Shown: in pieces, positions 16,421 to 20,663 of the stretch
Numbering within the stretch: position 1 is the first letter of the stretch
Layout: the number at the start of each line of letters is the position of its first letter
Assembly (NCBI RefSeq): GCF_016862555.1
Contig: NZ_BONE01000013.1
Coordinates: 1-64,000, forward strand
Length of the DNA: 64,000 bases
Direction of reading: 5' to 3'
From: Asanoa siamensis
GTDB taxonomy: Bacteria > Actinomycetota > Actinomycetes > Mycobacteriales > Micromonosporaceae
The notes under the pieces: generated by a model
Databases searched by the model: none
Seen by the model: the letters and a program-made list of their open reading frames with translations, nothing else
Told to the model about the DNA's origin: nothing
Program-made: the position numbers and the translations under genes

Positions 16421-16813
16421 TCAGCCCAACGGCGCGAAGTAGTCCCGCAGGTGGCTGATCAGGCCGTCCCGGACCCGGAAGATCTGCACCAGCGACATCG
16501 TCGCGCCCGAGACGAACGCGGTGTCGATCTCGGCGATGAAGACGTCCGGCTCGGCGGTGGCGTGCAGCGTGAAGGACGTCCGGGTCGGGTCCACCGGGTC
16601 GTCCGCCGGGGCCGGCAGCCGAAGGTAGGCCGCCGCCATGCCGGCCCGGATGGCCTCCCGGCCCGCCAACCGGCGCGGGACGGCGTCCCCGTCCCGCGCG
16701 AACGGTGCCTCGTAGACGCCGTCCGCGGTGAACAGTGCGGCGAGCGCGTCGGGATCGCGCGTCATCGCCCCGGCGTGGATGTACCGCTGGAAGATCTCCT
16801 GTGGCGTCGTCAC
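16421..16813 (-). CDS. SnoaL-like (NTF2-fold) protein
   Basis: A 130-residue NTF2-fold protein of the SnoaL-like type (FQRYIHAGAMTRDPDALAAL at the start, then a short alpha+beta barrel). Members range from polyketide cyclases to isomerases and small binding proteins; the function here is unknown. GTG 16813 overlaps the glyQS stop codon as GTGA, so it is translationally coupled to glycyl-tRNA synthetase. Its own stop lies 4 bp from that of the convergent GGDEF-EAL gene, within the palindrome TGACGCGTCA. Confidence 0.82.
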   Translation of the reverse strand: MTTPQEIFQRYIHAGAMTRDPDALAALFTADGVYEAPFARDGDAVPRRLAGREAIRAGMAAAYLRLPAPADDPVDPTRTSFTLHATAEPDVFIAEIDTAFVSGATMSLVQIFRVRDGLISHLRDYFAPLG

Positions 16814-19776
16814 ATCCGGAGATGGTCCCAGTCCAGGATGCCGGCGCCAAGGTCCCGGACCGTCGCGAGCAGGCCCAGGCGGGCGCGGCGCAGGGCCGGC
16901 TCCTCGGCCATCACGTACACCTCGTCGAAGAAGGTGTTGACCGGCTCGGTGACCTTGCCCGCGGCCGACAGGAACGCGACCAGGTCGGGGCCCGACACCG
17001 CGACCGAGCGGACCACCTCGTCGAGGCGGCGCTCGGCCGGCTCGACCAGGTCGGCCACGTCGTAGCCGGCGGGCGTCCCGGCCGGCACGATCCGCCGCGC
17101 CCGCTGGATCGCCTCGACCAGCGCCCGGAACCGCTCGTCCTTGACCAGCTCGTCGAGCTGGTGCAGCAACTGGTCGGCCAGCGCCGGGCGGTCGGCGTGC
17201 GGCAGCACCGCGCGGACCCGGTCGACCGGGTGCCCCTCCTCGACCAGCACCTGCTCCAGCCGGCGGGTGAGGAACTCGGCCGCGTCGGCCAGCACCTGGC
17301 CGGACACCTCGACCGGCTGCAACGCGGCCGCGTCGGCCATGGCCGCCGTCAGGCTCACCGGCACCAGCCCGGTGCGGTGCACGGCGAGCAGGCCCAGCAC
17401 CGCGCGGCGCACCGCGAACGGGTCGCTGCTGCCGGTCGGCAGCCCGACCGTGGCCGCCATGCCCGTGACGAGGTCGAGCCGGTCGGCCAGCGAGAGCACG
17501 GCACCGGGCACGTGCGACGGCACGGCGTCGCCGGTGTTGCGCGGCAGCTCGCTCTCGAAGACGGCCTCGGCGACCGCGGCGGGCTCGCCGGCGTGCGCGG
17601 CGTAGTCGCGCGCCATCACGCCCGCGAGACTGGTCATCTCCGTGACGAGCTGCGCGCCGAGGTCGAACTTGACCAGCTCGGCGGCCCGGCCCAGGGTGTC
17701 GCGGTCGGCGCCGCCGAGACCGGAGGAGTTCGCCAGGGTACGGGCCAGCGTGCTGATCCGGGCCGCCCGGTCGGCCATCGAGCCGAGCTTGTCGGTGAAG
17801 GTGAGCCGCTCGAGCCGGTCGCGCATCGCGTCCAGCGGGGTGTCCCGGTCGGCGCGGTAGAAGAAGGCCGCGTCCTCGTACCGGGCCCGCAGCACCGCCT
17901 CGTTGCCGGCGCGGACCAGGTCCTCGTCGATGTCGCCGTTGGCCACCGCCACGAAGCAGGGCAGCAGCGAGCCGTCGGCGGCGCGCACCGGCAGGTAGCG
18001 CTGGTGCTTGCGCATGACCGTGGCCAGCACCGCCTCGGGCAGCCGCAGGTAGCTCTCGTCGAACCGGCCGAGCAGCGCCGTCGGCCGCTCGACCAGGTAG
18101 GTGACCTGGTCGATCAGCGCGCGCTCGTCCTCGACGTCGACCTGTCCGCCGGCGGCCGCGGCGAGCCGCTGCGCGTCAGCGACGATCTCCGACCGGCGCT
18201 CGTCGGGATCCGCCACGATGCCGTGCGCGCGCAGCGTGTCGAGGTGGGTCTCCGCGCTGTTGACGACGACGGTCGGCGACTCGGCGGTGCGGTGCACCCG
18301 GGTCTCCCGGCCGGCGGCCAGCGTCGAGACCGCGAACGGCACGACCTCGTCGCCGCGCAGCGCGAGCAGCCAGCGGATCGGGCGCGTGAACGACAGCGCG
18401 GGGTCGTTCCAGCGCATGTTCTTCGCGGAGCGCAGCGCCGTGACCACCTTGGCCAGCACGTCGGCCAGCACCTCGCCGGCCGGACGGCCCGCCTCGTGCT
18501 TCACCACCGCCACGTGGGCCACACCGTTGACGTCCTGCTGTTCGAGGTCGGCCAGCTCGACACCCTGCGACCGGGCGAACCCGCGGACGGCCGGGGTCGG
18601 CTCGCCCGCGGCGTCGTACGCGGCCGCGACCTTGGGACCGCGGACCGTGCGCACGTGGTCCTGCTCGCGGTCGGCCACCGCGTCGACGACCGCGACGATC
18701 CGGCGCGGGGTGGCCAGCACGGTGATCTCGCCGTGCGCCAGTCGGGTGGCGGCCAGGCGCTCGGTCAGCTCGCGGCGCACCTGCTCCCGCGCGGCCCTGG
18801 CCTCGGCGGGCGGCAGCTCCTCGGTGCCGATCTCGAAGACGAGCTGCCGCACGCCCGGCGACCCGTCGACGGCCTCGGCCGGCGGCTGCGCGGCCGGCGT
18901 CGCCGCGACCGTGCCCAGCGGGTGGCCGAGCTCCTCCCGGCGGGCGATCCACTGCTTGGCGACGTCACCGGCGAGCCGGCGCATCCGCCCGAACTCGGCG
19001 GCCCGGTCCGAGGTGGAGACGGCGCCGCGGGCGTCGAGGACGTTGAACGCGTGCGAGGTCTTCAGCACGTAGCTGTGGGCGGGCACCGGCAGCCCCGCCT
19101 CGACCATCCGCTGCGCCTCGCCGGCGTAGAGGTCGAGCAGCTGCCGGTTGGTCGCCACGTCGGCGTCGTCGAGGTAGTACCGCGACATCTCGTACTCCGG
19201 CTGTCCGAAGACCTCGCCGTAGCTGACCCCCGGGGCGTACGCGATGTCCTTGAAGTGCCGCACACCCTGCAGGGCCATCAGGATCCGCTCGATGCCGTAG
19301 GTGATCTCCACGGACGGCGGCTCGAGGGTGACGCCACCCGCCTGCTGGAAATAGGTGAACTGGGTGATCTCCAGGCCGTCGAGCCAGACCTCCCAGCCGA
19401 GGCCCCACATGCCCAGCGCGGGGGAGGCCCAGTTGTCCTCGACGAACCGGACGTCGTGCGCGGCGACGTCGATGCCCAGCGCGGCCAGGCTGCCGAGGTA
19501 GACCTCCTGGGCGTTGCCCGGCTCCGGCTTGAGGATGACCTGAACCTGGGTGTGGGTCTGGATCCGGTTCGGGTTCTCGCCGTACCGCGAGTCGTCGGGC
19601 CGCACCGAGGGCTCGACGTAGACCACGCGCCAGGGTTCCGGCCCGAGCACCCGCAGGAAGGTGGCCGGGTTGAGCGTGCCGGCGCCGACCTCGGTGTTCA
19701 TCGGCTGCACCGTCAGGCAACCCTGATCGACCCAGTAGGCGGTGAGCCGCGACAGGGCTTCCTGCATGGTGAGCAT
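16810..19776 (-). CDS. glyQS: Glycine--tRNA ligase, fused alpha and beta subunits
   Basis: A 988-residue protein joining both subunits of the bacterial tetrameric glycyl-tRNA synthetase. Residues about 1-290 match GlyQ, the catalytic alpha subunit (MQEALSRLTAYWVDQGCLTV, GLGWEVWLDGLEITQFTYFQ). After a short Ala/Pro linker near residue 320, the rest is GlyS, the beta subunit (FEIGTEELPP; later an HD-like region, MRWNDPALSFTRPIRWLLAL, and a C-terminal anticodon-binding-like domain). ATG 19776 has AAGGAG 6 nt upstream. A tRNA gene lies directly upstream on the same strand. It charges tRNA-Gly in the cytoplasm. Fused GlyQS chains are known in Chlamydia and some actinobacteria. Confidence 0.95.
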   Translation of the reverse strand: MLTMQEALSRLTAYWVDQGCLTVQPMNTEVGAGTLNPATFLRVLGPEPWRVVYVEPSVRPDDSRYGENPNRIQTHTQVQVILKPEPGNAQEVYLGSLAALGIDVAAHDVRFVEDNWASPALGMWGLGWEVWLDGLEITQFTYFQQAGGVTLEPPSVEITYGIERILMALQGVRHFKDIAYAPGVSYGEVFGQPEYEMSRYYLDDADVATNRQLLDLYAGEAQRMVEAGLPVPAHSYVLKTSHAFNVLDARGAVSTSDRAAEFGRMRRLAGDVAKQWIARREELGHPLGTVAATPAAQPPAEAVDGSPGVRQLVFEIGTEELPPAEARAAREQVRRELTERLAATRLAHGEITVLATPRRIVAVVDAVADREQDHVRTVRGPKVAAAYDAAGEPTPAVRGFARSQGVELADLEQQDVNGVAHVAVVKHEAGRPAGEVLADVLAKVVTALRSAKNMRWNDPALSFTRPIRWLLALRGDEVVPFAVSTLAAGRETRVHRTAESPTVVVNSAETHLDTLRAHGIVADPDERRSEIVADAQRLAAAAGGQVDVEDERALIDQVTYLVERPTALLGRFDESYLRLPEAVLATVMRKHQRYLPVRAADGSLLPCFVAVANGDIDEDLVRAGNEAVLRARYEDAAFFYRADRDTPLDAMRDRLERLTFTDKLGSMADRAARISTLARTLANSSGLGGADRDTLGRAAELVKFDLGAQLVTEMTSLAGVMARDYAAHAGEPAAVAEAVFESELPRNTGDAVPSHVPGAVLSLADRLDLVTGMAATVGLPTGSSDPFAVRRAVLGLLAVHRTGLVPVSLTAAMADAAALQPVEVSGQVLADAAEFLTRRLEQVLVEEGHPVDRVRAVLPHADRPALADQLLHQLDELVKDERFRALVEAIQRARRIVPAGTPAGYDVADLVEPAERRLDEVVRSVAVSGPDLVAFLSAAGKVTEPVNTFFDEVYVMAEEPALRRARLGLLATVRDLGAGILDWDHLRM

Positions 19777-19836
19777 CGATGACTCCTTGGTGGGGATTTG
19801 TCCCACCGAGTCTACGCAGGCTGGCATTGACGGCCT

Positions 19837-19860
19837 GGCACCACTGGGGCCAGTGGTGCC
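19837..19860. repeat. Perfect inverted repeat overlapping the tRNA 3' end
   Basis: GGCACCACTGG and CCAGTGGTGCC are separated by 2 bp. On the transcript the first arm contains the tRNA's own 3' GGCACCA and the second arm is in the trailer, so the two can pair in competition with the acceptor stem. It may be a processing signal or weak terminator ahead of glyQS. Confidence 0.7.
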
Positions 19861-19929
19861 CCCGGTCGGATTCGAACCGACACTGTCGGAGGTTTGAGCT
19901 CCGTGCCTCTGCCGTTGGGCTACGGGGAC
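19854..19929 (-). tRNA. tRNA with anticodon CAA (UUG codon) and a short variable loop
   Basis: A 76-nt cloverleaf with encoded CCA. The acceptor stem GTCCCCG pairs with CGGGGGC (one T-G pair), with discriminator A73. The D arm is GCCCAACGGCAGAGGC with GG at 18-19. The anticodon stem CGGAG/CTCCG is perfect around loop CTCAAAC, so the anticodon is CAA, which reads the Leu codon UUG. The variable loop has only 5 nt (ACAGT), the T stem GTCGG/CCGAC is perfect, and the T loop is TTCGAAT. Normal bacterial tRNA-Leu is class II with a long variable arm and about 85 nt. This one is class I in shape yet carries a leucine anticodon, so its amino acid cannot be assigned from the anticodon alone. Confidence 0.88.
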
Positions 19930-20039: not shown

Positions 20040-20663
20040 GTGGGCGAGTCGCAGACTGCCGAGCGTCGGCGCGTGCTGATCGCCGAGGATGAGGCCCTGA
20101 TCCGCCTCGACCTCTCGGAGATGCTCACCGAAGAGGGTTACGACGTGGTCGGCGAGGCCGCCGACGGCGAGACCGCCGTGCGGCTGGCCGAGGAGCTCAA
20201 GCCGGATCTGGTCATCCTCGACATCAAGATGCCGATCATGGACGGGCTCGCCGCCGCCGAGCGGATCGTCGGCGGGCGGATCGCCCCGGTCGTCATCCTG
20301 ACGGCGTTCAGCCAGCGCGACCTCGTCGAGCGGGCGCGCGCCGCGGGCGCGATGGCCTACCTGGTGAAGCCGTTCCAGAAGAGCGACCTGGTGCCGGCGA
20401 TCGAGATCGCCCTGTCGCGCTACGCGGAGATCGCCTCCCTCGAGTCCGAGGTGGCGGGGCTGGCCGACCGGCTCGAGACCCGCAAGAGCGTCGAGCGGGC
20501 CAAGGGCGCGCTGATGACGAGCTACGGGATGACCGAGCCGCAGGCCTTCAAGTGGATCCAGCGCACCGCGATGGACCACCGGATGACGATGCGCGAGGTC
20601 GCCGACCGGATCGTCGCCGAGGGCGTCGGCGGCGCGGCCCCCGACACCACCGACACCCCCTAA
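20040..20663 (+). CDS. pdtaR: PdtaR-type response regulator with ANTAR RNA-binding domain
   Basis: A 207-residue two-component regulator. The receiver domain (about 12-130) has the acidic pair EDE, phospho-acceptor Asp61 in VILDIKMP, and the conserved Thr and Lys (ILTAF; LVKPF). The ANTAR domain (about 140-195) binds RNA stem loops and acts by antitermination rather than by binding DNA. GTG 20040 follows GGGGAGAGG. The matching Mycobacterium protein, PdtaR (Rv1626), pairs with the sensor kinase PdtaS; no kinase is encoded beside it here. From memory, the gene lies a little upstream of polA, rpsA, coaE and uvrB there as well. Confidence 0.92.
   Translation: MGESQTAERRRVLIAEDEALIRLDLSEMLTEEGYDVVGEAADGETAVRLAEELKPDLVILDIKMPIMDGLAAAERIVGGRIAPVVILTAFSQRDLVERARAAGAMAYLVKPFQKSDLVPAIEIALSRYAEIASLESEVAGLADRLETRKSVERAKGALMTSYGMTEPQAFKWIQRTAMDHRMTMREVADRIVAEGVGGAAPDTTDTP

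Follow-up and report, generated by a model that had tools for sequence, protein, structure and literature searches.

Sequence comparisons indicate that the tRNA-Leu(CAA) gene of the window, as we call the whole stretch of 64,000 nucleotides from Asanoa siamensis analysed here, very probably encodes the UUG-reading leucine tRNA of this genome, a short-armed tRNA that lies at the locus usual for tRNA-Leu(CAA) and would be charged by LeuRS. The features discussed below are listed in Table 1. According to ARAGORN this gene is the sole tRNA in the 64-kb window, and at the gathering thresholds it is also the only match to any Rfam family (RF00005, 52.8 bits, E = 1.7e-8).

Table 1. Features of the window around the short-armed tRNA-Leu(CAA) gene
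Feature	Position in window	Strand	Basis
Short-armed tRNA-Leu(CAA), class I shape, 76 nt including encoded CCA	19854..19929	-	ARAGORN, Rfam, positional comparison, folding
Anticodon CAA (positions 34-36)	19894..19896	-	ARAGORN; counted from sequence
Variable loop ACAGU (44-48); U48 at its end able to pair with A15	19882..19886	-	Rfam, positional comparison
glyQS, fused alpha-beta glycyl-tRNA synthetase, starting ~75 nt downstream of the tRNA	16810..19779	-	NF011499, 1370.9 bits
pdtaR-like response regulator, conserved neighbour marking the tRNA locus	20040..20663	+	Conservation measured

The original prediction had described a complete cloverleaf of 76 nt with perfect anticodon and T stems, the anticodon CAA, an encoded CCA and a variable loop of 5 nt. 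ARAGORN and the RF00005 match agree with this description, and the loop indeed reads ACAGU; what the description had lacked is a C13·A22 mismatch in the D stem, which otherwise consists of three pairs. The acceptor stem has seven pairs, one of them a U2·G71 wobble, the anticodon stem (CGGAG/CUCCG, enclosing the loop CUCAAAC) and the T stem (GUCGG/CCGAC) are paired at five of five positions, and the discriminator A73 is followed by the CCA. With its 5 nt, the variable region is shorter than the 10 nt or more of a class II arm. The cloverleaf is also the minimum-energy fold (-29.7 kcal/mol), with 9 of 200 shuffled sequences folding equally well, and a hairpin 3' of the tRNA is no better than shuffles (31/200 fold equally well).

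Within the family, a DNA match to the tRNA at E<=0.001 is present in 98 of 121 genomes, the weaker ones possibly being other tRNAs. The best 30 of these loci yield a CAA tRNA of 74-77 nt without exception, and their D stems carry compensatory changes at pairs 10-25 (G-C, U-A or C-G) and 11-24 (C-G or U-A). Because of these matches, the CAA tRNAs at the best loci and the covariation, family-wide conservation rules out a chance cloverleaf, and we regard the gene as a real tRNA as far as sequence can tell. The same observations bear on the idea that it might be a functionless pseudogene or relic, with UUG being read by tRNA-Leu(UAA). Wobble reading of this kind is possible in principle, but a cloverleaf retained across the family and far beyond, with compensatory exchanges in its D stem, makes a relic hardly credible.

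Identity was judged by lining up the tRNAs of the genome position by position; parsing failed for one array tRNA-Glu, and tRNA-Ala(GGC) and the array tRNA-Leu(CAG) were shifted by an additional 5' base. Among the parsed tRNAs, A14, A15:U48, A73 and an A22 opposite position 13 occur jointly in leucine tRNAs only, namely in the long-armed CAG, GAG and UAA species and in the short-armed CAA and two UAG species, while the Leu(CAA) of a separate tRNA array deviates with A15·C48. All elements expected of a tRNA-Leu (A73 together with A14, A15:U48, G18G19 and A20a) are present in the window tRNA. A wider comparison of 41 distinct short-armed and 32 distinct long-armed leucine sequences found A14, A15 and G18G19 in every one, U48 in 40/41 and 32/32, and A73 in all 40 readable short-armed and all 32 long-armed sequences. 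The two kinds differ elsewhere in the core: position 9 is A in 39 of 41 short-armed and G in all long-armed tRNAs, pair 12-23 is C-G in 41/41 against G-C in 32/32, and position 13, opposite A22, is C in 41/41 against G in 30/32. The window tRNA accordingly has A9, C12-G23 and C13·A22 rather than the long-armed core of G9, G12-C23 and G13·A22. Its U2·G71 pair is shared by 13 of the 41 short-armed sequences in total, as opposed to C2-G71 in 30 of the 32 long-armed ones. In view of the core differences, identical recognition of the two cores cannot be assumed.

The premise that a bacterial LeuRS needs the long arm for identity is contradicted by work on the E. coli enzyme, for which A73, A15-U48, G18G19 and A20a matter and variants lacking the long arm remain active (PMC9976931). 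One LeuRS gene in the A. siamensis genome scores above the family cut-off. We propose that this single LeuRS would charge the short-armed tRNA by recognizing A73 and, in the elbow and D loop, A14, A15:U48, G18G19 and A20a, which would act independently of the long arm, and that the leucylated tRNA would then decode UUG in the same way as every other tRNA-Leu(CAA). Expression of the tRNA and its charging by LeuRS, at whatever rate, are inferred.

The remaining tRNAs of the 8.78-Mb genome are in line with this proposal. ARAGORN, run around the 64 RF00005 matches, found long-armed tRNA-Leu with the anticodons CAG, GAG and UAA and short-armed tRNA-Leu in the form of two UAG genes and the CAA gene of the window; the separate array contains a short-armed Leu(CAA) and a short-armed Leu(CAG). 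Neither a long-armed Leu(CAA) nor a long-armed Leu(UAG) was detected in the genome, whether by patterns or by ARAGORN on the stretches around the 64 matches. A search for a normal class II tRNA-Leu(CAA) elsewhere in the genome had been suggested as a check on recoding. No class II gene was detected, but this is not a sign of recoding, because a long-armed Leu(CAA) is likewise missing, by pattern, from 263 of the 264 genomes of the class in which we found the short form. The array comprises 20 tRNA genes, several of them oddly structured (L240:7175-9568; G000 C2:131174-133567), and tRNA arrays were also seen in the A. ishikariensis (L234) and Rhizocola hellebori (L238) loci. Elsewhere in the genome, a gene resembling a tRNA carries the amber anticodon CUA (L052; G000 C95:15211-15282); ARAGORN calls it tRNA-Pyl, and it may represent a suppressor or a relic.

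These 264 genomes, out of 394 in the class, match a strict short-armed CAA pattern; the count is one of pattern matches, and a few of those listed (e.g. in G416) look like chance. A backwards control of the pattern matched 2/394 genomes. The strict version was used because a looser class I pattern, with matches in 301 of 394 genomes, gave many chance matches in protein-coding sequence. The original prediction's mention of unusual UUG-reading tRNAs in actinobacteria is consistent with this distribution. By comparison, the long-armed CAA pattern matches 112/394 genomes, of which 19 were excluded as chance since none of their matches forms all five anticodon-stem pairs (counting G·U), leaving 93. 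Neither pattern matches 38 of the 394 genomes, some of which may hold variants outside both. The two patterns coincide in a single genome (G402), where the short match is a 3' tRNA fragment without the 5' half. The mutual exclusion of the forms gives a Fisher value of 1.7e-57, which ignores shared ancestry and hence is not usable as a probability. One genome outside the strict count (G209) has a long-armed CAA tRNA at pdtaR and an additional short-armed one elsewhere, which escaped the strict pattern (L158, L199).

At the species level, the strict pattern matches seven of 11 genomes checked, namely Asanoa hainanensis, A. ishikariensis, Actinoplanes xinjiangensis, Rhizocola hellebori, Salinispora cortesiana, S. 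mooreana and Pilimelia terevasa, and gave no match in Metallococcus carri, Intrasporangium calvum and two Flexivirga species. The sole strict CAA match of R. hellebori (L238:1500-1575) lies inside a 12-tRNA array. Within the phylum but outside the class, 19 of 234 genomes have a short CAA match, and 14 of these, from three families, look tRNA-like by eye. In two genomes of the class, G228 (L277 ~1745) and G402 (L285, minus strand), the pattern matches are 3' fragments of tRNA-Leu(CAA) that lack a full 5' half; they resemble leftovers of elements that integrate into the tRNA-Leu(CAA) gene, and such integration would be their cause.

Divergent from the tRNA lies the response regulator gene that we take to be pdtaR, and both forms of tRNA-Leu(CAA) adjoin it. 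The long-armed form does so at 26 of 29 loci in a first set (with one locus, L194, left out since it has no tRNA) and at 24 of 24 in a second, with one genome (G245) common to both sets. The short-armed form adjoins pdtaR at 29/30, 16/17 and 12/12 loci in three sets; for the 16/17 set, 13 of 30 short-pattern loci were left out as lacking a CAA tRNA. The 24/24 and 12/12 counts come from one group of 40 loci, taken largely from genera in which both forms occur; four of the 40 were omitted for the same reason. By pattern, both forms are present, in different species, in 10 genera (g48, g65, g67, g79, g82, g99, g102, g108, g112 and g156), and in four of them (g48, g67, g99 and g112) we found complete tRNAs of both kinds, each at pdtaR. 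Since both forms adjoin pdtaR, even within these four genera, the short- and long-armed Leu(CAA) genes are, judging by their placement, positional orthologues, and the two almost never occur together. The gene of the window thus belongs to tRNA-Leu(CAA) by position as well, occupying the locus of the long-armed form and replacing it there.

Two versions of a single leucine tRNA should behave in this way, nearly excluding each other at one locus, whereas an added recoding tRNA should not. The original prediction had left two readings, a leucine tRNA that has lost its arm or a tRNA charged with another amino acid that recodes UUG. The first is supported by the leucine elements, the pdtaR locus and the exclusion with the long form. 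For the second, in which a dual-identity or recoding tRNA would partly or fully mistranslate UUG, one could point to the combination of a class I shape with a leucine anticodon and to the precedent of dual-identity tRNAs, which are known in Streptomyces for other codons. Against it stand not only the shared locus, the near-complete exclusion and the leucine elements in the tRNA body, but also the use of UUG in proteins. We aligned 68 glyQS genes (that of the window and those of 67 further loci, with frames set by tblastn; 1153 columns) and counted the residues of the other rows at conserved UUG positions. There are 77 such columns. Leucine is the residue of the remaining rows in 68 columns and in 201 of 212 cells, and no other residue occupies more than two cells. 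UUG behaves like CUC (1324 of 1413 cells leucine) and CUG (1204 of 1327) in the same count. The Asanoa UUG columns are few, seven in all: five correspond to leucine, one to valine and one to glutamine, and leucine is the residue at each of the three that are well conserved. The glyQS columns thus speak against wholesale reassignment of UUG; they do not identify the amino acid on this tRNA, and codon conservation is insufficient for that, because the long-armed tRNA-Leu(UAA) might also read UUG. On the exclusion, the shared pdtaR locus, the leucine elements and the UUG columns together, we rejected recoding, which we consider very unlikely for this tRNA.

A further alternative arises from the other neighbour. 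The glyQS gene lies close downstream on the same strand and looks spare, as the genome also has a dimeric GlyRS (G000 C10:132309-133652), so that GlyQS might charge the tRNA, the two forming a dedicated pair that places glycine at UUG. Streptomyces offers a pair of this kind in ProRSx and its tRNA. The adjacency, though, is confined to Asanoa: a CAA tRNA stands beside glyQS at three of 67 glyQS loci, all from this genus (at one locus, L116, the upstream side falls outside the data), and conversely glyQS stands beside the CAA tRNA only at the six same-genus loci among the 30 tRNA loci. Moreover, the tRNA has A73, A35 and A36 where the genome's own tRNA-Gly has U73, C35 and C36. We rejected a dedicated GlyRS-tRNA pair because the neighbourhood is found in Asanoa only, and regard glycine at UUG by this route as extremely improbable. 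From its distribution, glyQS appears to be a local arrival, a genus-specific neighbour that we do not judge to be a functional partner of the tRNA. The gene, whose product has 989 residues, is 89-91% identical to glyQS of three Asanoa species. Its reading frame is open back through the tRNA, which we take for an accident; the ATG at 19779 was used as the start because GlyQ homology begins there (TIGR00388 matches from residue 4). Among the other glyQS loci, one has a tRNA-Arg ~0.7 kb upstream (L094) and one a doubtful 96-nt call downstream (L097), and Winogradskya consettensis carries two glyQS genes on different contigs (L066, L090).

Short arms are not restricted to the CAA anticodon. A short-armed UAG pattern matches 28 of 197 genomes. 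Two of these (G226, G230) appear to be chance matches, and the remaining 26 do not overlap with the 116 of 197 genomes that match the long-armed UAG pattern. Over the whole molecule, the short CAA tRNA is as close to the long-armed CAA (identity 0.63) as to the short-armed UAG form (0.62), while in the D arm the mean identity is 0.76 between short CAA and short UAG against 0.59 between short and long CAA. A short-armed tRNA-Leu(UAA) was seen in a genome of the same order (L283:2344-2419). In a phage collection, 54 records match the short-armed tRNA. Ten of these were examined: nine contain a short-armed tRNA-Leu, from phages of Streptomyces, Corynebacterium, Gordonia, Myxococcus and marine cyanobacteria, and one has only a 3' half. 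The phage records examined already label such genes tRNA-Leu. In Streptomyces phage LukeCage (L248:196-364), a short-armed tRNA-Leu(UAG) of 75 nt and a longer one of 82 nt lie side by side. The cyanophages S-CREM1, P-RSM6 and P-SSM7 (L244:195-267, L245:194-269 and L246:195-267) have short-armed tRNA-Leu(UAA) with a CAGTG motif at the variable loop, as in actinobacteria. The record with only a 3' half is that of the Mycobacterium abscessus prophage prophiGD02-2; it starts (L250:1-50) with this piece, apparently of a short-armed tRNA-Leu(UAA), where the prophage probably has its attachment site.

It is possible, although we would place it somewhat below an even chance, that the short-armed leucine tRNAs form a distinct structural lineage, marked by A9, C12-G23, C13·A22 and the 5-nt loop and comprising CAA, UAG, UAA and CAG, which moves in phages and tRNA arrays and has been swapped with the long-armed CAA form at pdtaR on many occasions, including among species of one genus. 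Perhaps a single short-armed type spread across anticodons; alternatively, loss of the arm may itself force the change of the core. Were the lineage real, the LeuRS of such bacteria would read two core architectures. Why the forms were exchanged is a matter of pure speculation; one idea is that a short-armed tRNA evades toxins which hold on to the long arm in order to cut or modify tRNAs.

A 2023 review describes tRNA-Leu as long-armed everywhere except in animal mitochondria, a rule that the short-armed bacterial genes contradict. In a review of non-canonical tRNAs, a search of the main text for the terms Actinobacteria, Streptomyces and Mycobacterium found none of them (PMC7609411). A 2024 paper on an M. 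tuberculosis toxin refers to tRNA-Leu 2, 3 and 5 as long-looped (PMC11541572), a naming which may imply that the others are short. A full-text search, judged by titles and opening lines and covering few subscription papers, gave no description of a short-armed bacterial tRNA-Leu among the matches listed, which is a weak indication that no such description exists. On the basis of these searches, we thus appear to be dealing with an undescribed, widespread structural variant of tRNA-Leu that, judging from the genomes compared, was repeatedly exchanged with the standard form at one locus. Sister species with a long or a short tRNA at this locus would provide natural pairs for testing which features LeuRS recognizes and what purpose the arm serves. 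There is also a practical side, as arm length, by which the Codetta paper called leucine or serine identity in yeasts (PMC8629427), would misjudge short-armed tRNAs if used as a criterion.

Several known systems resemble the tRNA of the window in part. One is the long-armed tRNA-Leu(CAA) itself, which shares the anticodon, A73, A14, A15:U48, G18G19, a 13·A22 mismatch and the pdtaR neighbour, but differs in a variable region of 13-16 nt rather than 5 and in the core positions 9, 12-23 and 13 described above. Streptomyces has dual-identity tRNA-Pro variants in which body and anticodon are seemingly discordant and which lie near a synthetase gene. They too come from an actinomycete, and their apparent discord and synthetase neighbour recall our case, whereas body and anticodon of the window tRNA are both of leucine type and its synthetase neighbour is specific to the genus. 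A human tRNA-Leu-CAA gene without the long arm has, according to the tRNAscan-SE 2.0 paper, a tRNA-Met body (98.4 versus 2.6 bits by isotype model; PMC8450103); the anticodon and the missing arm are the same, but the body of the window tRNA shows leucine features. Animal mitochondrial tRNA-Leu also lacks the long arm and is leucylated, with A73 and A14 stated as identity elements (PMC9976931), but it functions in an organelle with its own LeuRS, whereas here a bacterial LeuRS would also serve long-armed isoacceptors. Lastly, the short-armed tRNA-Leu genes of phages have no long arm and a similar D arm, and that of Corynebacterium phage StAB even has the anticodon CAA and is 79.2% identical; they differ in being phage-borne and, in the other records, in having the anticodons UAA or UAG.
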